Assembly: GCA_012031925.1 (NCBI GenBank)
Contig: JAAUSE010000005.1
Coordinates: 1 to 37,426 of the forward strand
Reading direction: 5' to 3'
Length of the DNA: 37,426 bases
From: Candidatus Altimarinota bacterium
Lineage (GTDB): Bacteria > Patescibacteriota > JACMRA01
Shown here: one piece after another, positions 2,309 to 37,426 of the stretch
How the letters are laid out: each line of letters begins with the position of its first letter
Numbering within the stretch: position 1 is the stretch's first letter
Notes under the pieces: model-generated
Told to the model about the DNA's origin: nothing
The model's input: only the letters and a program-made list of their open reading frames with translations
The model's database searches: none
Program-made: the position numbers and the translations under genes

Positions 2309-2815
2309 TTATGTATTTTGAATTAGTGTTTTCAAGGTTCTAAGATCAGTATTAACCAGATTCATCAATTCATCAAAGTTCTTTTTATCACTTTGTATCT
2401 TAGTGACTTCCAAATCAATCTTAGTTTGACCACAATCTTTCTTAATTATCTGCACATCTCTAGTCATTGTATCAAAAAGCTGTTGAAGGTTTGTATTATT
2501 TGTATCAATGTTTTCCAAAATATCTTCCATATTAGAATTCTCAATACCCAAGTCACCCAATCTACTTATCAAGAATTCAAGAAGATTAACATTTTTGGAG
2601 TACTTGTCTTGAAAATTTCTATATTTATTATCTATTGGATCAAATATATTACTAACCTTTGATACAATATCTTCACATATCAATGTAACTTCTTGCTCAT
2701 CATTACACTGATCCTGACAATTATCTTGAGAAATTACTTGAACAGAGAAAAAACTTAACCAACAAACGATTCCAACAATCCCACAAATCCCCCAAAATTT
2801 TTGTATTGACTTCAT
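2309..2815 (-). CDS. Hypothetical secreted or membrane-anchored helical protein
   Basis: Unrecognised, 168 residues from the chosen ATG at 2815. An upstream TTG at 2851 would add 12 residues, but the apparent Shine-Dalgarno site in front of it is the 3' arm of the upstream gene's terminator, so the ATG with AGGA eight bases upstream is preferred. An N-terminal hydrophobic segment (about residues 5-28) looks like a signal peptide or anchor. A Cys-bearing stretch follows (NCQDQC, then a Cys near LICED), and then a long polar, Asn- and Leu-rich helical region with probable coiled coil. It is coupled to the 68-residue membrane protein downstream. Confidence 0.55.
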   Translation of the reverse strand: MKSIQKFWGICGIVGIVCWLSFFSVQVISQDNCQDQCNDEQEVTLICEDIVSKVSNIFDPIDNKYRNFQDKYSKNVNLLEFLISRLGDLGIENSNMEDILENIDTNNTNLQQLFDTMTRDVQIIKKDCGQTKIDLEVTKIQSDKKNFDELMNLVNTDLRTLKTLIQNT

Positions 2816-2849
2816 ATCTATAATCCTACAAAGATTTTCAAAAAATAGC

Positions 2850-2877
2850 AAAAAAAACTCACCTCCAAAAGGGTGAG
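2850..2877 (-). terminator. Rho-independent terminator of the 120-aa ORF
   Basis: Minus-strand CTCACC, 8-nt loop, GGTGAG, then T8, immediately after the stop codon at 2884. It argues against translation starting at the TTG at 2851. Confidence 0.8.
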
Positions 2878-2883
2878 AAGTGA

Positions 2884-3246
2884 TTACAGCTCCAACAAAG
2901 GTACTGATTGTAGCATCAGATCCTCAAAATCAAGATCATAATTTTTTAGCATAAAATCCTCATCAACACGCTGAATTCTGACACAAGGAGCAAATCCTTT
3001 ACTAAAACAGATTGGATAATTTTGAGCCATCTTTTTGTATAACCTTTTGATGAAATTGTTATTGCAAAAGGAATAATATCTATCCAAATACTCAAAAACC
3101 AAAATTGGCGAAAGTTTTAATATAGGTAAGTTTATGTAATTTTGACAAAAACTATCCCAATCAAAAAAATCTCCAGGGAGTAAATTAGGGTCAACTCTAA
3201 CAAATAATTTATCTATCTGTACCAACTCAATTATTATGGTGTCCAT
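2884..3246 (-). CDS. Hypothetical 120-aa protein
   Basis: No family recognised. The protein is soluble with no signal peptide or membrane segment, and is rich in aromatic and acidic residues. Features are an IELVQIDKLFVRVDP opening, a Phe/Asp cluster (FFDWDSF), three Cys in the middle (FCQNY, YSFCNN, ICFSKGFAPC) and an acidic C-terminus. The start has GAGG about 10 bases upstream. The gene diverges from rplK and shares a ~100-bp intergenic region with it. It ends in its own terminator. Confidence 0.55.
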   Translation of the reverse strand: MDTIIIELVQIDKLFVRVDPNLLPGDFFDWDSFCQNYINLPILKLSPILVFEYLDRYYSFCNNNFIKRLYKKMAQNYPICFSKGFAPCVRIQRVDEDFMLKNYDLDFEDLMLQSVPLLEL

Positions 3247-3303
3247 TTTTAAGAAGCCTCAATCTAACTAATTACTTTTAGCATAGTTTTATAATTTTGT
3301 CCA

Positions 3304-3331
3304 TTGACAAACCTGCCCACTTATGTATTAA
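3304..3331 (+). promoter_or_regulatory. Promoter of rplK
   Basis: TTGACA, 16-nt spacer, TATTAA. Transcription would start only about 6 nt before the rplK ATG at 3345, and no Shine-Dalgarno site is present, which suggests a leaderless or nearly leaderless mRNA. Confidence 0.5.
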
Positions 3332-13289: not shown

Positions 13290-15737
13290 ATGAAATTTCC
13301 GAATTTACTAAAATTTTTAACCAGCCAAAAACTACAAATTAGCAGAATAATAACAGCACTATCACTATTGTTCCTAATATTCTCTGTATTTGTAGGATCA
13401 TCTATCTCAACCTTTGCCCAAGACAAGACAATAGCTACAGATACCTTCACAAAAGAACCAGCTAATAACAGCACGTTTACAGGCTTAAAGACTAGTAAAA
13501 CATTTCCTTTAGATGCAACTGTGTATAGTATATCTTTACTACATGGTAGTGGTTTTCAATATAAACCCTCAGAATCCAGCTTTGGTTCAGATCTTGCAAA
13601 TAAACCAAACGGAACCAGAGCTTTTGATATCACTGAGTGTACCGTTGATGGCTATTGCTTAGCAATAGATAACACTGATTCAAGTGGAAACTCTCAAAAC
13701 CAAAAATCATTAGTATTTAGTGGCTGCTCAGGTTCATATTACTATAAAAGTGTTAGTCCAGATGATGGGGGTAACAGATTTTATGTAACTTGTACGAAAC
13801 AAGAGGATATATTATATGAATCTGGAGCAAAAAGACCTGATACTGTTGTTGAACTCCAACAAGACATCAATGATGTCAAAGCAGCTAAGGGTGGGGATGA
13901 AGCAAAAAAACAAGCAGTTTTAGCTAAAAATCTTAATTCAACTGATACAGATCTCAAAACTGGAAATAAAGTTGATCAATCTGGAACTTCAGGTGCTGCA
14001 CAACAAGCAACCAATCCAGACGCAAATGATGGAGGTGCGGATCTTTGGACAATCCTCTTCAATCTGGTTGCTTCCATCCTGCTCATATTTGTATGGCTCC
14101 TTGCTTGGCTGATATTTTGGATATTCTGGATAGTTGCTTACATCTTTTTAATCCTAATTCAGATCAATCCGGCTGGTACTGACTTCATCAACGTGGCCAT
14201 CGCCCCGTGGCAAATAGTTGTCTCCATCGCCAACATCGTGGTGCTGGGTTCTTTCATCTTCATTGGGTTTGGTTATCTTCTCAACATAGGTTTTATCAAA
14301 AAAACAAGCCTCTCTGAATTTGTCACCAACATTATTATCGTAGCTGTGACCATCAACTTTACTATCTTTGGTGCAGCTACATTTGTAAATATCACTCACG
14401 GAGTAGGTAATGCTTTTGTGGGTGGTTATGCAGGAACTCAAGGAACTTCTGCTGATAAAATTATCTCCAAAGTAACTGAAAGTATTCAAAATATTTCTTT
14501 TGTTCGTTGCGGTAATTTACCTGAAGTAGACTCTGAAACCCTCAACAAATCCAAAGACGCTAATACTGGAGTATCCAAATTTGAGTGTGATGAACCATCT
14601 GGTACTTTGGGTGATGTTGGTCGTGTACTCAGTACTTTTGGTGAGATTGGTGATAAATCTGGAGCTAATGTAACTCGAGTAATGCGTGAAGTACTGTACC
14701 TAACAATCATTGCTTTTGCTATCTTAATTTTTTGGAAAGGTATCCGTCTGGCTTTGATTCGAGTGGTCGGACTTTGGCTATTGATGATAATATCTCCTTT
14801 GGCCCTAGTTGGTTATTTTTCACCTTTTGATGATCTCAAAAAATATGGCAAACAGTGGTTAGATTATTTTTGGAAGTTAGCATTATTTTATCCTGCCTTC
14901 ATCTTTGGTTGGATCCTAGTTGGTGAAATGTCAACCCAGTTCGTGGGTGCTGCCAACGCTAATTTGGCTAATAACCCTGCGACAGTTTCCAACACTGGTT
15001 CTGTGTTAGCTGAGGCTCAAGTATTTTCCTCAGGCAATATTAACTCTCTAATTCTGCTAGTACTAGGTGGTATTGTGACTATTGGAATGATGAATCTTCT
15101 CTTTGAATTCTTCGAAAAGAGCTTTAATGAAATTGCCAAGGCTGGTTTAGATGCACTTCAAAGTACCGTGGGTAAAAGCATTGGCTTTGCAACTAGCACG
15201 GCAGGAGGTGCCATTAGAGCAGGTGGTAAGGGAGCAGGACTTGCAATTGGTGTTGCCTCCAAACTAAATGATAAGAACTATCAATTCCAAATTGGTACTC
15301 TTGACAAACAAATAGCAAACACTAGTGATCCTGCTATACTACAAAAATTAGAAAATCAAAAAATCAATCTAGAAAATCTCAGACAAAAAAGACTTGATCA
15401 AGGTAATTTTCTCAAGGAAAATGTCAAAAATGGCTTTCAGTTTGCTGGAGATGCGGTGGAATACACACCAAAACTAATGAGTAATATTGCCTCAATTCCT
15501 GGAGGTTTTAGCAAAAACCGGCAAAAACAAAAAGAGGCTCGTATAGCCGGGATGGACACAAGGCTGATGGCCAGAACTGAGGCTGCAATGAGGCTCAATC
15601 CAGTACTTGCAGGAGCTTTAGCTGGTGTTGGGTACAATATTGACGCAGACGAGAATTTTCAAAGATTCCAAGGACTGGATCAAAAAACCCTTGATCAAAT
15701 TAACAAAAAAAAACAAGGAAGATGGCAAAGGCTATGA
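13290..15737 (+). CDS. VirB6/TrbL-like polytopic membrane protein (N-terminal ~805 residues)
   Basis: A type IV secretion-type inner-membrane channel protein by topology and sequence style, as is common in CPR genomes. A signal peptide (about residues 1-43, ending near STFAQ) is followed by an exported domain with Cys-bearing segments (ITECTVDGYCLAI, FSGCSG, VTCTKQED). The polytopic core then runs from about residue 255 to 620: a Trp-rich helix cluster (LLAWLIFWIFWIVAYIFL), helices with NPAGTDFINVAIAPWQIV, RVVGLWLLMIISPLALVGYF and SLILLVLGGIVTIGMMNLLF. After it a Gly/Ala-rich amphipathic stretch and a long cytoplasmic coil begin. The frame stops at 15737, but removing one A from the A9 run at 15705-15713 continues it to 17235 as a 1314-residue protein. 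Confidence 0.8.
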   Translation: MKFPNLLKFLTSQKLQISRIITALSLLFLIFSVFVGSSISTFAQDKTIATDTFTKEPANNSTFTGLKTSKTFPLDATVYSISLLHGSGFQYKPSESSFGSDLANKPNGTRAFDITECTVDGYCLAIDNTDSSGNSQNQKSLVFSGCSGSYYYKSVSPDDGGNRFYVTCTKQEDILYESGAKRPDTVVELQQDINDVKAAKGGDEAKKQAVLAKNLNSTDTDLKTGNKVDQSGTSGAAQQATNPDANDGGADLWTILFNLVASILLIFVWLLAWLIFWIFWIVAYIFLILIQINPAGTDFINVAIAPWQIVVSIANIVVLGSFIFIGFGYLLNIGFIKKTSLSEFVTNIIIVAVTINFTIFGAATFVNITHGVGNAFVGGYAGTQGTSADKIISKVTESIQNISFVRCGNLPEVDSETLNKSKDANTGVSKFECDEPSGTLGDVGRVLSTFGEIGDKSGANVTRVMREVLYLTIIAFAILIFWKGIRLALIRVVGLWLLMIISPLALVGYFSPFDDLKKYGKQWLDYFWKLALFYPAFIFGWILVGEMSTQFVGAANANLANNPATVSNTGSVLAEAQVFSSGNINSLILLVLGGIVTIGMMNLLFEFFEKSFNEIAKAGLDALQSTVGKSIGFATSTAGGAIRAGGKGAGLAIGVASKLNDKNYQFQIGTLDKQIANTSDPAILQKLENQKINLENLRQKRLDQGNFLKENVKNGFQFAGDAVEYTPKLMSNIASIPGGFSKNRQKQKEARIAGMDTRLMARTEAAMRLNPVLAGALAGVGYNIDADENFQRFQGLDQKTLDQINKKKQGRWQRL

Positions 15738-17235
15738 CTTTCTTGATAGTGAGATCAATGGAATGGTAAATGCAGCTCAAAAAAAAGCACTAGGTCTTCA
15801 AACCGAGATTGATAGAGAAATTCTTCAAGCCAAAATGGAATCTGGAGCCTCACTCTCCAGCGATAATATGAGACAAATCCTCAAAGACAAAGGTCTAAGA
15901 AATATAGCATATAATAATGAAAGTGTTCTTAACAAAATCAGAGGCAATGTCAATCAGCTCAATGATCCTGAGATTGACAACATGGTCAGAACCAAAGCTC
16001 CAGCTTTTTTGAGAACTGCCAACGAAAGAGAAGCCGCAATTATGTCTATGAGTATTGATGAGCTCAAAGAAATGGATCCAGGAAATTTCAATGACGCTGC
16101 ATTAGCTCTAGGAGGAGTCAGAAGAATTGAGCAAAGTCCAGAAGCTGCTAAAATCATCAACTCCAACGGAGGACTCAATAATGTTTCGCTCATTGAATGG
16201 AATAAGTACAAAGAAAATAACACAACGCCTATTAACCAAAATCAGTCTAGGCTAGCTGACAGTTTTATGAGTTCAATGAGTTCTAATCAAAACCCATTTG
16301 AATCTGATTTGGTTTCCAAACTAGCTCAAGATGCTAATGATTTTGAAAAACAATACAAACTAAACCCATCTCAATTTCAAAACCCAAACGATCCAAAATC
16401 TTATGATCAATTGCTTAGCGAACACTTAAATACTAACATGCAAGGGTACCAAAATACCTATTTTGGTACTGGTGGTGGAGTTGAAAAAGTCATCAAAGAA
16501 GCTGGTATAGAAGATCCATCAACATTAGCCTATGTTAGAGACGGGCTTCAGCAATCAACAAACAACAAAGAGCTCAAAGAGGTTTTCCAAAGAAAAATTA
16601 TTAACACAGTCAAAAAAGTCCAAAAAACTGCTCAAAATTATGGTGCAGGTACTTCTACCAAGAATCTAGCAATTGCGACCCTCAATGCAGTGATTGGTGA
16701 TGCACAAGTTAGAAACAGATTACAAGATCCAGCTTCTGTAGATGTGATTAACCAAAACATAGGTCTTGAAAAAACTATTGCTAATATCCAAAAAGACATT
16801 CTTCAAGGAGGTGCAGGCTCAAATAACTTCAATTCTGAAAAAGAAATTGAAAAAGCCTTCAACAAATACCGTAAATACCTATCAGCTGTTGCCGCTGGAA
16901 GCACAGTCGATGCTGATGCAATAAAAAATGAATTAGCTAATGACCAGTATTTCTTATCTAATATTGAAGGCAACCAAAACACTGGCCAAATTTTTCAAGA
17001 AGCTAAGACAATAGGAAAAAAAGAACTACAACAGATAGTAGATAATTCAGCACAAAGTAATTTTACTGATGCTGCTCTTCGTGATATTATGCGACAAAAA
17101 GTTGACACAATCCAAAATCAAGTTACCAAAGAAAGAGATAGTAACATTGAACATTTTAAAAAAGAAGATAGTATTAAAGGAATCACAGGTGCTTTACAAG
17201 GTCAAGAAGTTGATTACACAGTTACCCTTCCATAA
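15625..17235 (+). CDS. C-terminal cytoplasmic region of the VirB6-like protein (frame-shifted continuation)
   Basis: The authentic part begins near 15712, after the A9 run; the 5' 90 bases overlap the upstream frame and are not homologous coding. It contributes about 508 residues, soluble and largely helical, rich in Asn, Gln, Lys and Glu, with repeated charged helices (NAAQKKALGLQTEIDREILQ, split by frame; KALGVRR-type segments such as AALALGGVRRIEQSPEAAK). No membrane segment or known domain was recognised. VirB6/TrbL-like proteins in CPR often carry such large cytoplasmic tails. The next gene follows 25 bp later, probably in one operon. Confidence 0.7.
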   Translation: MLGTILTQTRIFKDSKDWIKKPLIKLTKKNKEDGKGYDFLDSEINGMVNAAQKKALGLQTEIDREILQAKMESGASLSSDNMRQILKDKGLRNIAYNNESVLNKIRGNVNQLNDPEIDNMVRTKAPAFLRTANEREAAIMSMSIDELKEMDPGNFNDAALALGGVRRIEQSPEAAKIINSNGGLNNVSLIEWNKYKENNTTPINQNQSRLADSFMSSMSSNQNPFESDLVSKLAQDANDFEKQYKLNPSQFQNPNDPKSYDQLLSEHLNTNMQGYQNTYFGTGGGVEKVIKEAGIEDPSTLAYVRDGLQQSTNNKELKEVFQRKIINTVKKVQKTAQNYGAGTSTKNLAIATLNAVIGDAQVRNRLQDPASVDVINQNIGLEKTIANIQKDILQGGAGSNNFNSEKEIEKAFNKYRKYLSAVAAGSTVDADAIKNELANDQYFLSNIEGNQNTGQIFQEAKTIGKKELQQIVDNSAQSNFTDAALRDIMRQKVDTIQNQVTKERDSNIEHFKKEDSIKGITGALQGQEVDYTVTLP

Positions 17236-18966: not shown

Positions 18967-20493
18967 ATGTTCTACATAACTAGCCCTATCCCGTATACCA
19001 ATTCCACCCCTCATCTGGGACATCTTTTGGAGGCAGTTTTTGTTGATACTATTACCAGATTCTATACTAGAAGTCAAACAGATTCAGTTTTTCTTTCTAT
19101 GGGTGTAGATCAGCACGGACTCAAAATTTACGAACAAGCGCAAACAAATGGAATTGAGCCTCAAGAGTTTGTAGATCATCTAGCTGATAACTATATCAAA
19201 TTATGGGAACAGTTCGAGATTCGCTATGATGAATTCGTCAAGACCTCCAGTCCAAGACATCGCGTGGTTGCCCAAGTTGTCTGGAACAAATTAGCCAAGA
19301 GTGGCCACATCTACAAAAAAGCTTATGAAGGTCTGTATTGCAAAGGCTGTGAAGATTTTTATGCACCAAGCCAGCTCACTGAAGACAAAAAGTGCCCAAT
19401 ACACAATACAAAACCTATTCAAATGAATGAAGAAAATTATTTTTTCCAATTATCCAAGTTTTCGCAACAGATCCAAGAATTTTTGGGAAGTGGTACTATT
19501 CACCCTAGTTATATTGCCAAAGAGCAGTTGAATTTTGTTCAAGAAGGTCTTCAAGATATATCCATAAGTAGAGAAAAGTCTCGCCTTCCGTGGGGAGTAC
19601 CTGTTCCTGGTGATGATACGCAGGTCATGTATGTTTGGTTCGAAGCTTTGATCAACTATTTCACTGCGATCGTCAATCCAGAGACCATCGACGCCTTAGT
19701 TGAATTTCCTTATCAACTTGATCTACATATTGAGCAATTATGGAAAGATATCCAAGATGCTATGCCAATCAATGTTATGTACATTAGTAAAGAAATTGCC
19801 AAATTCCATCTAGTTATTTTTATTGGAATCCTCAAGGCACTTGATCTCCCTTTGCCTCAAAGAGCTTTGGCGCACGGGTTGATTAATGATAAAGAAGGAA
19901 TCAAATTCTCCAAATCTCTCGGCAACGGCGTCAGTCCCCAAGAAATGGTTGAGCTTTTTGGAGTGGATGGAACCAGGTTTCTGATTCTTCATGAGATTAA
20001 TATTGATGGTGATACCAATTTCAATTGGGATAATATGATTGAGAGTTATAATTCTCATCTCGCTAACAATATTGGTAATTTGGTAATGAGAGTCACTACT
20101 TTGGTGTCCAAGAATTTTGATGGACTTATTGATCTCGAAAGTCTGGAGGAGGGTTATAAACTATACGATTTTGCTCAGTGTTACAATTATCTTGATCAAC
20201 TCAACCCCAGAAAAAGTCTTGATTATTTATTAGAGGGAGCACGCAAAGGTAACGAGTATTTGGAAAGCACCAAGCCCTGGTCTCTTATCAAAGAGGGGGA
20301 TAAAGAAAAAGCTCAAAAAATCCTCACCCAGCTAGCAGTTTTACTCAAAGACCTCTCAGAAATAATTAGTATCTTTATGCCCGCTACAGGTCAATCGATT
20401 CATCAAATAATCACAGCTGATGTCATAGAAAAAGCCCAACCACTTTTTTGCCAAAGTGGAAAAAATCGAAAAATAAGCCCTAGATTTCTCTAG
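18967..20493 (+). CDS. metG: Methionyl-tRNA synthetase
   Basis: Class I synthetase that charges tRNA-Met. The signature HLGH is at residues 16-19 and the KMSKS equivalent KFSKS near 313-317. A zinc-knuckle-type insertion is present around residues 124-147 (CKGCEDFY and KKCPIH). The tRNA/Met-site helix SRLPWGVPVPGDDTQVMYVWFEALINY is present in parts (SRLPWGVPVPGDD; VMYVWFEALIN). About 508 residues, the short type lacking the C-terminal EMAP domain. The last residues are odd: removing one T from the T6 run at 20444-20449 changes the end to PLFAKVEKIEK and stops at 20476, which matches the family better. No Shine-Dalgarno site, probably leaderless. Confidence 0.97.
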   Translation: MFYITSPIPYTNSTPHLGHLLEAVFVDTITRFYTRSQTDSVFLSMGVDQHGLKIYEQAQTNGIEPQEFVDHLADNYIKLWEQFEIRYDEFVKTSSPRHRVVAQVVWNKLAKSGHIYKKAYEGLYCKGCEDFYAPSQLTEDKKCPIHNTKPIQMNEENYFFQLSKFSQQIQEFLGSGTIHPSYIAKEQLNFVQEGLQDISISREKSRLPWGVPVPGDDTQVMYVWFEALINYFTAIVNPETIDALVEFPYQLDLHIEQLWKDIQDAMPINVMYISKEIAKFHLVIFIGILKALDLPLPQRALAHGLINDKEGIKFSKSLGNGVSPQEMVELFGVDGTRFLILHEINIDGDTNFNWDNMIESYNSHLANNIGNLVMRVTTLVSKNFDGLIDLESLEEGYKLYDFAQCYNYLDQLNPRKSLDYLLEGARKGNEYLESTKPWSLIKEGDKEKAQKILTQLAVLLKDLSEIISIFMPATGQSIHQIITADVIEKAQPLFCQSGKNRKISPRFL

Positions 20494-25332: not shown

Positions 25333-27876
25333 ATGCAAGTAACCACAAGAAAAGGAATAGAGTCAGTAGATTTTAACAAAATTTTAGAAAAGCTCAACAA
25401 ATTTGCCAAGAATATGGACAGTTCGGTTGATACTGGACTAATAACTCAAAAAACTATTGAAAGAATGGTTGATGGTATAACTACTGAAGAGCTCGATAAT
25501 CTTTCTGCTGGAATTGCAGCTTCAATGTCCAATATTCATCCTGACTATTCTAGACTAGGTGCTAGTATTTTAGTTGATCGTCTTCATAAGAATCTTGATA
25601 TTCCCAAAAGAGCTTTTTCTCAAAACATCACAATCTTGTTCGAAAACAAAATTAACGGCCTCAAATCCACTCGTATTTCTCAGACAACTTATGACTTTAT
25701 CCAAAAACACCAAGACCATCTCAACAATTTGATTGATCATTCTAGAGACTACTTGGAGTTTGACTATGCGGCTATTCAAAGCTTTTTCAAAAGAGGTCTG
25801 GAACAAATCGATAGTAAACCTGCCGAGTCTCCTCAACAAATGTTTTTAAGGGCTGCAGTTGGTCTAAATATCTACAAGCCAAGATCTCAAAACGAGGTAG
25901 AGAATTTCAAGCAAATCACAGGTGTTGATTACAGACCAGGTTGGATTGCCAAAATGACAGATGAACAAAGGCTTGAAATGATCACTCAATATTATAATGC
26001 TCTAAGTCTTAGGAAAATCTCACTCCCAGGACCAATACTTCTTCACGCTGGAAGTGAATACAATCAAATGTCTTCTTGTTACTTACAATATTGTGGTGAT
26101 TCTCTAACAGGAGATGATTACAACGAAAATGGAGTGGTTGGAGGAATTCTTGGCTCAGTGACACAGTTAGCAGCACAATCCAAAGGTGGAGGAGGAAACG
26201 CAATTACCATAACTGATCTTCGAGGAAACGCTTCACCAATACGCAAAACCAACGGCAAATCCAATGGAATTTTACCTTTTATGAAGATGTTTGATAGTAC
26301 AATTGGTGCAATCAACCAATCTGGAAAAAGAGCTGGAACCTGTGCCGTCTACATTGAGCCATGGCATATTGATATTCTTGATTATCTAGATGCAGGCAAT
26401 CATTTTACTATCGAAGAAAAACGTTGCAAAAATCTTTTTTATGGACTCTTTATGAATAATCTATTCTTTGAGAGGTTTGTTGCAGATCAAGCTAATGCCA
26501 AATGGACTTTGTTTGACCCAGGAGAAGTTGCCAATTATCTGGAGAAACCACTGAGCGAATATTATGGCAAAGAGTTCAAAAAACACTATGAAGAACTAGA
26601 AGCAAAGGGTCTTGGCAAGCAAATTTCTATAATGGAGATCTGGAGTCGTATCTGCAACTTGTGGCAAACAACTGGCATGCCATATATCCTTAATAAAGAT
26701 GAAATCAACCGCAAATCCAATCAAAAAAATCTTGGCACAATCAAAAGCTCCAACTTATGTACTGAAATTGCACTAGTCTCTAATTCTCAAGAGACTGCTG
26801 TCTGTGTCTTATCCTCCATCTGTGTAGCTAGATTTGTTGATCAATCATACCCTGAAGGTGTTGATTATGATAGGATTATCCAAACAGCTAGAATTGCCAC
26901 CAAACACCTCAATAATGTTATTGACCTACAATATTACCCAACACCAGAAACTCGCAACTCTTGTTTGATGAGAAGAGCAATTGGAGTAGGAGCTCAAGGT
27001 CTAGCAGACGTTTTTCATGAGCTACGCATTGGATTCACCAGTAAAGAAGCTAAGAAGATCAACAAGCACATATACGAAGCAATCTATTACGGTTGTCTCA
27101 AAGAGTCTATGGAGCTTGCCAAAGAAGATGGTTATTACACAGGTTTTGAAGGATCTCCAGCAAGCAAAGGTGAGCTACAATTTGATATGTGGGGAATAAA
27201 AGAAGAAGACTTGATACTTCAGGAAAAATGGACTCAGCTCAAAAAAGATATAATAGAATATGGGCTACGCAATTCAGAAGTAACAGCTCTAGCCCCAACG
27301 GCTTCTTCCTCAGTTAGAATGGGCAACAATGAAATGCACGAACCGTTCACCCGCAATGTCTATGTTCGCCAAACAATCGCTGGTTCTCTCCAAATCGTTA
27401 ACCGTTTCCTAGTCCAAGAGCTAAGCGAGCTAGGTTTGTGGAATCAAGGACTATGTAATGACATTATCTCCCAAGACGGCTCAGTCCAAGGAATAGCTGA
27501 CATTCCTCAAGATATTCAAGACAGATACAAAACCGTCTATGAATTAGACTGGAAAGACCTAATAGATATGATGGCTGAGCGAAGCCCATTCATTAGCCAA
27601 ACAAGCAGCTACAATCATTATACAACCTATGGGGAAAGTGGACCAACTGCCTTCACTCAAAAAATCATCTATGGTTGGAAAAAAAATCTCAAAACCCTTA
27701 GCTACTATCAACACACAGAAACAGCTACCACAGCCAAAAAAGAATTGGGAGGAATTAGCTCAAGCGCCAATCAACCTCAACCAAAGTCAAGATGGACTCC
27801 ACCAGAAAATTTTGTAGACACATCAGGAGTAGAAACAGTAGTTATGGGAGAGGTTTGTGAAGATTGCAGCGCTTAA
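25333..27876 (+). CDS. nrdA: Ribonucleotide reductase class I, alpha (R1) subunit
   Basis: NrdA reduces ribonucleoside diphosphates to the deoxy form. An N-terminal ATP-cone (about residues 1-90, VTTRKGIESVDFNKILEKL) indicates allosteric activity control. The first redox Cys is in MSSCYLQYCGD (about 247-257). The NLCTEIAL motif (about 473-480) supplies the thiyl-radical Cys with catalytic Asn/Glu, and CVLSSICV the partner region. The C-terminal VCEDCSA is the shuttle Cys pair (C842, C845). The finger and TASSSVRMGNNEM phosphate-binding segments are present. 847 residues without frame breaks. Last gene of nrdB-ORF-nrdA, with a strong terminator. Confidence 0.97.
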   Translation: MQVTTRKGIESVDFNKILEKLNKFAKNMDSSVDTGLITQKTIERMVDGITTEELDNLSAGIAASMSNIHPDYSRLGASILVDRLHKNLDIPKRAFSQNITILFENKINGLKSTRISQTTYDFIQKHQDHLNNLIDHSRDYLEFDYAAIQSFFKRGLEQIDSKPAESPQQMFLRAAVGLNIYKPRSQNEVENFKQITGVDYRPGWIAKMTDEQRLEMITQYYNALSLRKISLPGPILLHAGSEYNQMSSCYLQYCGDSLTGDDYNENGVVGGILGSVTQLAAQSKGGGGNAITITDLRGNASPIRKTNGKSNGILPFMKMFDSTIGAINQSGKRAGTCAVYIEPWHIDILDYLDAGNHFTIEEKRCKNLFYGLFMNNLFFERFVADQANAKWTLFDPGEVANYLEKPLSEYYGKEFKKHYEELEAKGLGKQISIMEIWSRICNLWQTTGMPYILNKDEINRKSNQKNLGTIKSSNLCTEIALVSNSQETAVCVLSSICVARFVDQSYPEGVDYDRIIQTARIATKHLNNVIDLQYYPTPETRNSCLMRRAIGVGAQGLADVFHELRIGFTSKEAKKINKHIYEAIYYGCLKESMELAKEDGYYTGFEGSPASKGELQFDMWGIKEEDLILQEKWTQLKKDIIEYGLRNSEVTALAPTASSSVRMGNNEMHEPFTRNVYVRQTIAGSLQIVNRFLVQELSELGLWNQGLCNDIISQDGSVQGIADIPQDIQDRYKTVYELDWKDLIDMMAERSPFISQTSSYNHYTTYGESGPTAFTQKIIYGWKKNLKTLSYYQHTETATTAKKELGGISSSANQPQPKSRWTPPENFVDTSGVETVVMGEVCEDCSA

Positions 27877-33851: not shown

Positions 33852-36800
33852 ATGAATCAATCTAACAATCAAAACACATCTTATTCTTCTGTAGATACTC
33901 AGAGAAAACTTAGAATAGAAAAAATGAAAAAACTCCAAAAACTTGGAATAAATCCTTTTCCATCCTTTTCTAAAAGAGACTTTAATCTTGAATTTGTTAC
34001 TTTTTGGTTTGATTTTGTTCATAAAAATGACTTTCCTGGGCGGATTTGGGATATGCAAAACAATCTTGATGCTAGACTGGAATTTCAATCTGAAGCAGTT
34101 CTGGCTAATTTGATCGTTCATCAAGCCTTTGCAGAAGATTCTTTAGATGAGGCTGAAGAATATACCAAAGAATGGATTGATAGCCAAGAAGATAGTGCTA
34201 TCCTCTATCAAAATTTTGAACAGTACATCCAAGTTCGTCGTAGTATAATCAAAGAAATCAAAGAATTTTTAGACTCCAAAGAAGGTTACAACGATACTCA
34301 AAAATTAGACCTAATTGATGAATATTTTCAAGAAGCAGATTTTGCAGGAGAGCACAAACCAGCCTTAATCAAAGAACAAGAAGTAACTTTGGCAGGTATG
34401 ATCAAAACCAAAAGAGGGTCTGGCAAAATCACTTTTGTGAGTGTAGAAGATATGAGTTATCCTCAAGGTTTTCAGTTCTTGCTCAAAGTTGATGAAGTAA
34501 AAGCTGAGGGTGATTCATTAAGTTATCTAGATTTCAAATCTATCGTAGAAGAAGGTGATTATGTCCAAGCCACAGGTCGATTAGACTATTCGCAATCAGG
34601 AGAGCCAAGTCTGTTTGTCAAAAATATCAAAGTCTTAACTAAATCTATTCGACCGCTACCAGATCAACTTGAAGATGTAGAGCAAAAATATCGTCATAGA
34701 TATATAGATATGAAGCTCAATCCAGAGGTTCGACAAATGTTTGTCCAAAAAAGTCGGTTCTGGTCTGCTACCCGTGAGTTTATGATCAACAATGGGTTCT
34801 TGGAGGTAAGTATGCCAACTCTAGAGGAAACCACTGGAGGGGCTGAAGCGGAGCCATTTGTCACTCATCATAATGCTCTTGATCAGGATTTTTATCTTAG
34901 AATCAGTTCTGAACTTCACCAAAAAAGAATGATAGTTGGAGGCTTTGAAAAAATCTTTGATATCGATAAGAATTTTCGCAACGAAGGTATCGATGATGAA
35001 CATCTTCAGGAGTACACTCAGATGGAATTTTACTGGGCTTATGCTGATTATAATGATCTCATTGACTATTGTGAGGAGCTTACCAAATATGTGATTGGAG
35101 AAACTTTTGGCACTATGGAGCTCGAGCACGATGGCAAAACTGTTGATTGGTCCAAGAAATGGGACAGAATTCAATACTACGACTTTGTAGAAAAATACGC
35201 TGGAATCAAGTTAGCAGAGTATGATACTTTGGAAAAACTACAAAATTTAGCAACTTCACTTGGGTTGGAATATGAAGAGTCAGCAGGTAAGGGCAGATTG
35301 ATTGATCTAATCTACAAAAAAACCGCTCGTCCAAAATGTATTGAACCAGTTTGGCTAATAGATCTTCCAATAGAGGTTTCACCACTGGCCAAACGCAAAG
35401 CAGACAATCCAGAACTGACTGAAAGAATGCAGTTAATTGCATATGGAAGCGAGTTATCCAATGGTTTTTCTGAGCTCAATGATCCAGTAGATCAGCTGGA
35501 AAGATTTCAAGAGCAGCAAAGACTTCGTGAAGCAGGGGATGGAGAAGCGATGATGTTAGATCGTGACTATGTCCAAGCCCTTGAGATCGGTATGCCACCA
35601 ACAGCAGGATTCGCTTATTCTGAAAGGCTTTTTAGCGTCTTATTAGGCAAACCAATTAGAGAAACCACTCCATTCCCTCTGATGAGATCTGAAGAGAACA
35701 AAGTTGGCAAAGAAAAAGAAACCCAAGTGGCTCATTCGATTTTGTTAAAGAACGAAGATATTCAACTATGGGAGCAAATCAACGCAGCCTCTCACTTGTC
35801 AGCAGCTTTTGCAGCTAGAGTAGGTCAGAGTCTTTTCTTCTCTAATTCATCGCGTTCACAAGATGGTGAGCAGATTCTAATGAACATCCAAAACGCTATT
35901 GTCATCAAGCAAACAGACTCCTCTGCCAAAATTCTCGAACTCAAAAGAAAAGCTGAAGAGTTAGGTCTATCTGTAGCAACCTTTACCAAAGATATGCTAG
36001 ACTCCAGTGATGATTCCAAAGTAATGGAAGCTCATGCTATAAAAAACATTGAAGATATAGAATTTCGTGGGGTTTTAGTCTTTGGCAAAATCAAAGCCGT
36101 CAAAGAGCTTACTAAAGAATTTGAACTCTGGTCTTCTTCCGGTGCTCCAACAAAAAATGAAATTTCCGAGTTTTATTCTGGATCAACAAGGCTTCTATCA
36201 CTTGAGGATAACACATACCTTTATAATTGTGAAGCAAATGTACTAGAAGTTGGTAATTTGGAAGGCAGCGATTATATTATACTTGATCAAACAGTTTTCT
36301 ATCCACAAGGCGGAGGGCAACCTTCAGATGTTGGTGTCATCAAGTCCGATTCAAATGAATACAATGTAACAAAATGTCAAAAGATTGATGGAAAAGTCTA
36401 TCACTTTGTAGATTCATTGGAAGGAGTTGGTGTTAATGATAAAGTAGAGGTTTCAATCAATGCTGAATTAAGAAAGCTACACGCAAGAATTCATACAGCT
36501 GGGCATATAATTGACGAAGCGGTTAAAAATCTAAACCTTGATATTGAAGCTGATAAAGGTTATCACTTCCCGCAAGGTCCATATGTTCAATATATAGGTG
36601 AGTTAGAAAATCCATCCGATTATATTAATGATCTTAATACTGAAATCAATAAAATTGTGAACAAAGATTCAAAAATTAGTTATCAATTATTTCAAAAATC
36701 AGTTGAGCCAGAAAGGTTGATGACAGTTGAAGGGTACAAACCTTGCCATTGTGGCGGAACACATGTCCAAAACCTTAACGAAATAGGTAAAGTAAACATA

Positions 36801-36860
36801 AGAAAAATCAAATCTAAAAAAGGTTTAGTGAAAGTGAGTTATGAAGTTTTAGATAATTAA
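33852..36860 (+). CDS. lysS: Lysyl-tRNA synthetase fused to DUF2000 (PTH2-like) and AlaX-type editing domains
   Basis: One 1002-codon frame holds three modules. (1) Class II LysRS, about residues 1-615: a QRKLRIEKMKKLQKLGINPF opening, a ~130-residue helical insertion, the OB-fold (VTLAGMIKTKRGSGKITFV), motif 2 FRNEG near 375, and motif 3 GMPPTAGFAYSERL at 580-593 ending FPLMR. (2) About 620-765, a DUF2000-like domain of the peptidyl-tRNA hydrolase 2 fold (INAASHLSAAFAARVGQ, RGVLVFGKIKAVKELTKEF). (3) About 785-1002, an AlaX/AlaRS-type editing domain with YPQGGGQPSD, zinc motifs H881-TAG-H885 and C967-GGT-H971. The linkers contain no start codon at domain borders. Charging with Lys is certain by family; the added domains suggest clearing of mischarged or peptidyl-tRNA. 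Weak promoter (TTGACA at 33802) and no Shine-Dalgarno site. Confidence 0.93.
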   Translation: MNQSNNQNTSYSSVDTQRKLRIEKMKKLQKLGINPFPSFSKRDFNLEFVTFWFDFVHKNDFPGRIWDMQNNLDARLEFQSEAVLANLIVHQAFAEDSLDEAEEYTKEWIDSQEDSAILYQNFEQYIQVRRSIIKEIKEFLDSKEGYNDTQKLDLIDEYFQEADFAGEHKPALIKEQEVTLAGMIKTKRGSGKITFVSVEDMSYPQGFQFLLKVDEVKAEGDSLSYLDFKSIVEEGDYVQATGRLDYSQSGEPSLFVKNIKVLTKSIRPLPDQLEDVEQKYRHRYIDMKLNPEVRQMFVQKSRFWSATREFMINNGFLEVSMPTLEETTGGAEAEPFVTHHNALDQDFYLRISSELHQKRMIVGGFEKIFDIDKNFRNEGIDDEHLQEYTQMEFYWAYADYNDLIDYCEELTKYVIGETFGTMELEHDGKTVDWSKKWDRIQYYDFVEKYAGIKLAEYDTLEKLQNLATSLGLEYEESAGKGRLIDLIYKKTARPKCIEPVWLIDLPIEVSPLAKRKADNPELTERMQLIAYGSELSNGFSELNDPVDQLERFQEQQRLREAGDGEAMMLDRDYVQALEIGMPPTAGFAYSERLFSVLLGKPIRETTPFPLMRSEENKVGKEKETQVAHSILLKNEDIQLWEQINAASHLSAAFAARVGQSLFFSNSSRSQDGEQILMNIQNAIVIKQTDSSAKILELKRKAEELGLSVATFTKDMLDSSDDSKVMEAHAIKNIEDIEFRGVLVFGKIKAVKELTKEFELWSSSGAPTKNEISEFYSGSTRLLSLEDNTYLYNCEANVLEVGNLEGSDYIILDQTVFYPQGGGQPSDVGVIKSDSNEYNVTKCQKIDGKVYHFVDSLEGVGVNDKVEVSINAELRKLHARIHTAGHIIDEAVKNLNLDIEADKGYHFPQGPYVQYIGELENPSDYINDLNTEINKIVNKDSKISYQLFQKSVEPERLMTVEGYKPCHCGGTHVQNLNEIGKVNIRKIKSKKGLVKVSYEVLDN

Positions 36861-37212: not shown

Positions 37213-37425
37213 TCAAAACCCTGTACTCGTCCACCACATTCTGGAATTTTGATCGTTATCAAGTACATATTGCAAGGGTGATTTTAAGTCAAGAGATAGG
37301 TGTGGTCTTTTGGTGTTGTACCATACAAGGTGTTGCATAAGTTTTCGATTGAAATTAGTTAGGTCTTTTAAGAAAAGGGTGTCTAAATTGTGGTAGATAA
37401 ATTCGTATTGTACAGAGCCATTAAA
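37213..37425 (-). mobile_element. IS transposase, C-terminal fragment (integrase core), cut by the window end
   Basis: The minus strand is open from the window edge to a TGA at 37213, giving about 70 residues. It carries the C-terminal signature of DDE integrase-core transposases (IS3/IS481-like): a segment with EFIYHNLDTLFLKDLTNFNR, KLMQHLVWYNTKRPHLSLDL and KSPLQYVL. The catalytic D, D and most of the core lie beyond the window. The IS end is probably between about 37150 and 37212, but no inverted repeat can be defined with one end only. Confidence 0.85.
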
Positions 37426-37426
37426 T

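Follow-up and report, generated by a model that had tools for sequence, protein, structure and literature searches.

We have found, in the very small genome of an uncultured patescibacterium, a lysyl-tRNA synthetase (LysRS) that runs in one frame into a DUF2000 domain and then, through a short linker, into a full-length AlaX-type editing domain. The gene (33852..36860, + strand) stays open from its ATG to its TAA, over 1002 codons. It lies in a window of 37,426 nucleotides, the whole stretch analysed here, which is contig 19 of the source genome (G000; 1.07 Mb, 51 contigs, 80% complete). An AlaX-like domain on a foreign synthetase is already known from the apicomplexan TrpRS (PMC3680381); judged from its sequence, what is new here is such a domain, with an active-looking site, on a LysRS. 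No published LysRS-DUF2000 or LysRS-AlaX fusion was found in a search of open-licence papers. Tentatively, and with slightly less than even confidence, we read the protein as a housekeeping LysRS whose tethered AlaX domain may serve as a post-transfer editing module, clearing mischarged tRNA made by the synthetase itself.

Domain searches of the protein were performed with Pfam and NCBIfam models at their curated cut-offs. Matches to LysRS, DUF2000 and AlaX were obtained for the three segments within the uninterrupted frame, which confirms the triple fusion that a sequence-only reading had proposed. The LysRS part (all parts of the gene are on the + strand) comprises an OB-fold anticodon-binding domain (residues 178-262, 34383..34637; PF01336, 2.7e-09) and a class II catalytic domain (residues 276-611, 34677..35684; PF00152, tRNA-synt_2, 8.5e-71), and it exceeds the thresholds of two NCBIfam LysS models (TIGR00499, 448.6 bits vs 427.6; NF001756, 488 vs 468). 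The motif 2 arginine and the lysine-pocket residues are kept in FRNEG, MEFY and NGFSELND, at residues 375, 391 and 537. Motif 3 has diverged to GFAYSER from GxGxGxDR, with its arginine retained, and has the same form in the sister genome G002; motifs 2 and 3 had both been called intact, which holds for motif 2 and is slightly too strong for motif 3. An insertion that separates the N-terminal helix from the OB fold, previously put at ~130 residues, is real, and by comparison with relatives and an AF2 model spans residues ~46-172 (33987..34367; ~125 residues, with helices predicted at low confidence). Similar segments occur in the family relatives G001 and G005 (L004 and L007) and none in G002, G003 or G004, so on sequence comparison the insertion is a variable feature of the family and not specific to the fusion protein. 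Searches of the 80% complete genome returned neither another class II LysRS nor a class I LysRS match above cut-off, and the fusion is therefore probably the cell's only LysRS.

The DUF2000 domain (PF09391) occupies residues 616-761 (35697..36134); its Pfam match covers residues 634-760 (6.3e-16, 59 bits vs a gathering cut-off of 25). An AlphaFold model of residues 616-764, built from a 13-row alignment, had a mean pLDDT of 88. In Foldseek its best match was the DUF2000 structure 2gax (7.5e-11), followed by archaeal and human peptidyl-tRNA hydrolase 2 (Pth2) at ~1e-5 to 1e-4, with TM ~0.5-0.58 by query length. The earlier suggestion of a Pth2 fold is thus supported. The activity that the fold might imply is doubtful: the DUF2000 domains of LysRSs share a W...N...H..A pattern at the start of helix 1, with invariant Asn and His, and the Asn, with residues matched by eye, apparently sits where Pth2 has its catalytic lysine. 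Hydrolase activity has likely been lost.

Between DUF2000 and AlaX lies a linker of 17 residues (762-778, 36135..36185), which has pLDDT <50; the full-length AF2 model is likewise of low confidence (pTM 0.37). The AlaX part (residues 779-1002, 36186..36857) contains a beta barrel with the Gly-rich motif GGGQP at residue 820 and a SAD-type editing core. It matches the NCBIfam model AlaXM over residues 786-989 (1.7e-34, 119.5 bits) and does not reach the equivalog cut-off of 300 bits, so it is described here as a homologue of AlaX-M and not filed as an equivalog. Pfam adds the C-terminal barrel portion of the AlaRS model tRNA-synt_2c (residues 805-871, 5.8e-14) and tRNA_SAD (residues 959-990, 25 bits vs a cut-off of 24). 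The domain is full length, aligning with free-standing patescibacterial AlaX from the first conserved residues through to the end. Both zinc motifs are complete as first described, HTAGH at residues 881-885 (36492..36506) and CGGTH at 967-971 (36750..36764), and so provide all four ligands (H881, H885, C967 and H971). The closest solved structures are of AlaX-M type (9iuw and 2e1b, 2e-20), together with archaeal-type AlaRS. Free-standing AlaX-M, as in 9iuw and in P. horikoshii (2e1b), shares the barrel with its Gly-rich motif and the HxxxH/CxxxH core, but is a separate protein acting on Ser/Gly-tRNAAla, whereas the window's domain is a portion of a LysRS.

The order in which the tail was assembled can be read from relatives. 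The class of the source genome is represented in our collection by six genomes, all of one family, and no AlaX was found in the other five (G001-G005). In the sister G002 (locus L023), whose LysRS is 67-68% identical, the LysRS-DUF2000 protein ends after EDFDLWS; at the same point the window reads KEFELWS, followed by the 17-residue linker and AlaX. As the sister protein stops where the linker starts here, AlaX is a late addition. LysRS-DUF2000 itself occurs in four of the five family relatives (G001, G002, G003 and G005, with G004 lacking DUF2000), and the sequences place DUF2000 as the older addition and AlaX as the younger one, made in this lineage only. The two-domain form is widespread: it was present in at least 17 of the 380 Patescibacteria sampled, of which the four family relatives are part and at least 12 are further genomes, and it was also met in Doudnabacteria and Magasanikbacteria records. 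It is therefore the addition of AlaX alone that is special. The other LysRS-DUF2000 proteins (G002/L023, Doudnabacteria, Magasanikbacteria) share the order of LysRS followed by DUF2000 and differ in having no AlaX and, in some, an added HD or B3/4 domain, in the layouts LysRS-DUF2000-HD (L024), LysRS-HD-DUF2000 (G228) and LysRS-HD-B3/4-DUF2000 (G280). On the LysRS tree the DUF2000 trait requires at least eight gains or losses; a single origin was rejected on this count, and the domain has likely been gained or lost repeatedly. The exact triple fusion was found neither in the five family relatives nor elsewhere among the 380 sampled Patescibacteria, so it was also rejected as a clade-wide trait. 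As a separate observation, a C-terminal HD-type tail of ~200 aa is present on the LysRSs of L052, L073, L085, L086, L091, L097, L024, L154 and L155, notably in Kerfeldbacteria and Magasanikbacteria (Pfam-confirmed for L024, L154 and L155; the others judged by sequence).

A profile search for AlaX in 353 genomes of another class than that of the source genome returned ~20 ordinary AlaX genes and a second LysRS-AlaX fusion, in G590 (L205 2257-4047). There the LysRS catalytic domain leads into a full AlaX in one gapless stretch of 568 residues. Like the window's protein, it carries a C-terminal AlaX in the LysRS frame; it differs in belonging to a separate lineage, in having no DUF2000, in reading CGGTP where the window reads CGGTH, with one zinc ligand lost, and in a run of 10 N bases upstream in the LysRS part, clear of the junction. 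In G197, of the same genus as G590, an intact AlaX gene follows a LysRS-B3/4 gene by 11 nt on the same strand, and in G301 (L156 2399-4282; 628 aa) AlaX stands at the N-terminus of PheRS-alpha, with its second zinc motif broken to DGGTQ. The window, G590, G197 and G301 fall in four separate places on the AlaX tree, and by sequence the G590 fusion arose independently of the window's. Free patescibacterial AlaX genes often adjoin, usually divergently, a TrmB-like regulator gene (L160, L176, L179, L181, L188, L191 and L206); Pfam confirms the regulator beside the L206 gene and a related one in L160, and the others were assigned by sequence similarity.

Other patescibacterial LysRSs carry a second kind of editing module, a C-terminal B3/4 domain of the PheRS-beta editing type. 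Sequence and domain searches located it in L063 (4986-7262), L169 (2061-4358) and L154 (1591-4947), in Gribaldobacteria and other Patescibacteria, with the LysRSs of G280 and G197 among the carriers. The same module family includes CtdA, which is a free B3/4 protein that edits canavanyl-tRNAArg (PMC10018355). The comparison suggests that editing modules have been joined to LysRS more than once in related bacteria and that lysine loading may be proof-read there. The sequence-only reading had held AlaX to be normally a free protein or a part of AlaRS, to which the apicomplexan TrpRS adds a caveat. In the Plasmodium enzyme (Pf-WRS AXD) an AlaX-type domain is also linked covalently, via a linker, to a synthetase other than AlaRS; it is N-terminal, on a class I TrpRS, AlaX-S-like and without its zinc ligands, and a tRNA-binding role has been proposed (PMC3680381). 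The window's domain is C-terminal, on a class II LysRS, AlaX-M-like and intact in its ligands, with DUF2000 in between. Among the synthetase-joined AlaX parts compared (window, G590, G301 and Plasmodium TrpRS), the window's alone keeps every zinc ligand, and the losses in the other three suggest a binding role for those.

No dedicated editing domain is known in LysRS, and tRNALys normally lacks the G3:U70 pair. Under the reading we favour, the tail would have been built in two steps, DUF2000 first and then, via the short flexible linker, a complete AlaX-M-type deacylase. The synthetase would charge tRNALys. Where a tRNA has wrongly received a small amino acid (serine above all, with threonine, alanine and glycine as possible others), its 3' end would be caught and the ester cleaved by the zinc-dependent AlaX domain, so that LysRS would acquire the post-transfer editing site it normally does without. 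DUF2000 would most likely act as a platform that binds tRNA or a partner, and not as a true peptidyl-tRNA hydrolase. In E. coli, LysRS is known to load Ala, Ser, Thr and other wrong amino acids onto tRNALys. ProXp-ST1/2 act in trans on Ser/Thr-tRNALys (PMC11295145); given such mischarging and the flexible linker, an AlaX behind LysRS would be well placed to hydrolyse these products. The G3:U70 pair is what known AlaX-M enzymes use to select tRNAAla, and small AlaX-S enzymes act without tRNA specificity (PMC11295145). The selection by AlaX-M counts against the editing reading, as do the zinc ligands lost from AlaX parts on other synthetases, the low confidence of the full-length model and the finding of the triple fusion on just one MAG contig; the fused AlaX would need a relaxed dependence on G3:U70, its tRNA being supplied by the synthetase. 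Still, the quality-control enzyme suggested by the sequence-only reading stands as the best interpretation, through the G590 fusion, the G197 adjacency and the B3/4 domains on other LysRSs, with deacylase activity predicted from sequence. A broader proposal is possible, if more doubtful: patescibacterial LysRS may have served repeatedly as a site where editing modules attach (AlaX and B3/4, with DUF2000 and HD), the window's AlaX, freed from G3:U70, clearing small amino acids from tRNALys.

An unlikely but by no means negligible alternative is that AlaX is active in its ancestral task, hydrolysing Ser-/Gly-tRNAAla in trans, the fusion coupling expression or placing AlaX on an abundant tRNA-binding protein. 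The G3:U70 recognition of AlaX-M enzymes (PMC11295145) fits this, and so does the state of AlaRS in the family, which is short, has no barrel before the editing core and is mostly split, so that back-up editing of tRNAAla could matter. In G000, G002 and G003, three of the family's six genomes, AlaRS is clearly divided between two genes on separate contigs, one (~300 aa) coding for the N-terminal catalytic part and the other (~330 aa, barrel absent) for the C-terminal part with tRNA recognition and editing; in G000 they lie at L103 2244-3140 (G000:C43) and L104 2556-3539 (G000:C47); further locus pairs are L115/L118, L116/L119, L114/L120 and L117/L162. Both pieces are also present in G005; G004 has the N-terminal piece with a C-terminal one that is fragmentary, and the gene is whole in G001. 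A split AlaRS is known from Nanoarchaeum. The beta half in G000 retains a SAD editing core with HTATH and CGGPH, so that AlaX is not a simple replacement, and AlaX is lacking in the family relatives whose AlaRS is split; the idea that it substitutes for lost AlaRS editing was therefore not supported. The lack of AlaX in those relatives also speaks against action in trans. The recurrent pairing, moreover, is beside LysRS rather than AlaRS, which modestly favours LysRS editing over action in trans on Ser-tRNAAla. As a side observation, two AlaRS-like catalytic-domain paralogues, of 348 aa in L110 (1552-2598 with 724-1539) and of 274 aa in L111 (1489-2313 with 2321-3319), both on the - strand, lie on different contigs, and each adjoins an S66 peptidase gene of the LdcA/MccF family; that the two genes are paired in both places suggests a functional unit, perhaps related to peptide antibiotics.

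It is rather improbable that AlaX is a tRNA-binding appendage without editing: Plasmodium TrpRS offers the precedent (PMC3680381) and the G590 and G301 fusions have both lost zinc ligands, but the window keeps all four together with the Gly-rich motif, features for which a module that only binds would have no use. We give very little weight to a protein led by DUF2000, that is, a peptidyl-tRNA hydrolase or drop-off rescue enzyme in which AlaX is secondary; the Pth2 fold is in its favour, and against it stand the apparent replacement of the Pth2 lysine by Asn and the absence of DUF2000 from the open-licence literature searched. It is also highly unlikely that LysRS-DUF2000 and AlaX are two adjacent genes whose fusion is only apparent, produced by a contig misjoin or by an indel in the consensus near 36170, even though there is an A run at the linker with an out-of-frame ATG nearby, the linker is just 17 residues long and the gene comes from a single MAG. 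No in-frame ATG, GTG, TTG or CTG occurs over residues 756-800, leaving AlaX without a normal start of its own, and the residues read in the LysRS frame at the start of AlaX match free AlaX from the first conserved Thr; G590, too, shows that such fusions occur. The 3' end of an insertion-sequence transposase (37222..37426, - strand, cut by the contig end; translation LMQHLVWYNTKRPHLSLDLKSPLQYV) lies 3' of AlaX and is repeated on seven further contigs of G000, which ties the 3' flank to this genome. The codon usage of AlaX agrees with that of the host and the other genes of the window, and its GC content (33%, vs 40% for LysRS) is inside the range of the window. Because of the multicopy fragment and the host-like codon usage, misassembly appears unlikely, and a chimeric contig is not supported. 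No Rfam match was found in the window for an RNA element upstream. Elsewhere in the window, MetRS (18967-20493) and the large ribonucleotide reductase subunit (25333-27876) are ordinary neighbours, and two long overlapping frames (13290-15737 and 15625-17235; 815 and 536 aa) have no Pfam match at E 0.001.

If the editing reading is correct, this would be a natural LysRS with an intact editing domain, making cis editing by a class II LysRS directly testable, and with it the retargeting of AlaX to a non-alanine tRNA. The repeated and varied additions to LysRS in these reduced genomes also bear on how such bacteria maintain the fidelity of translation.
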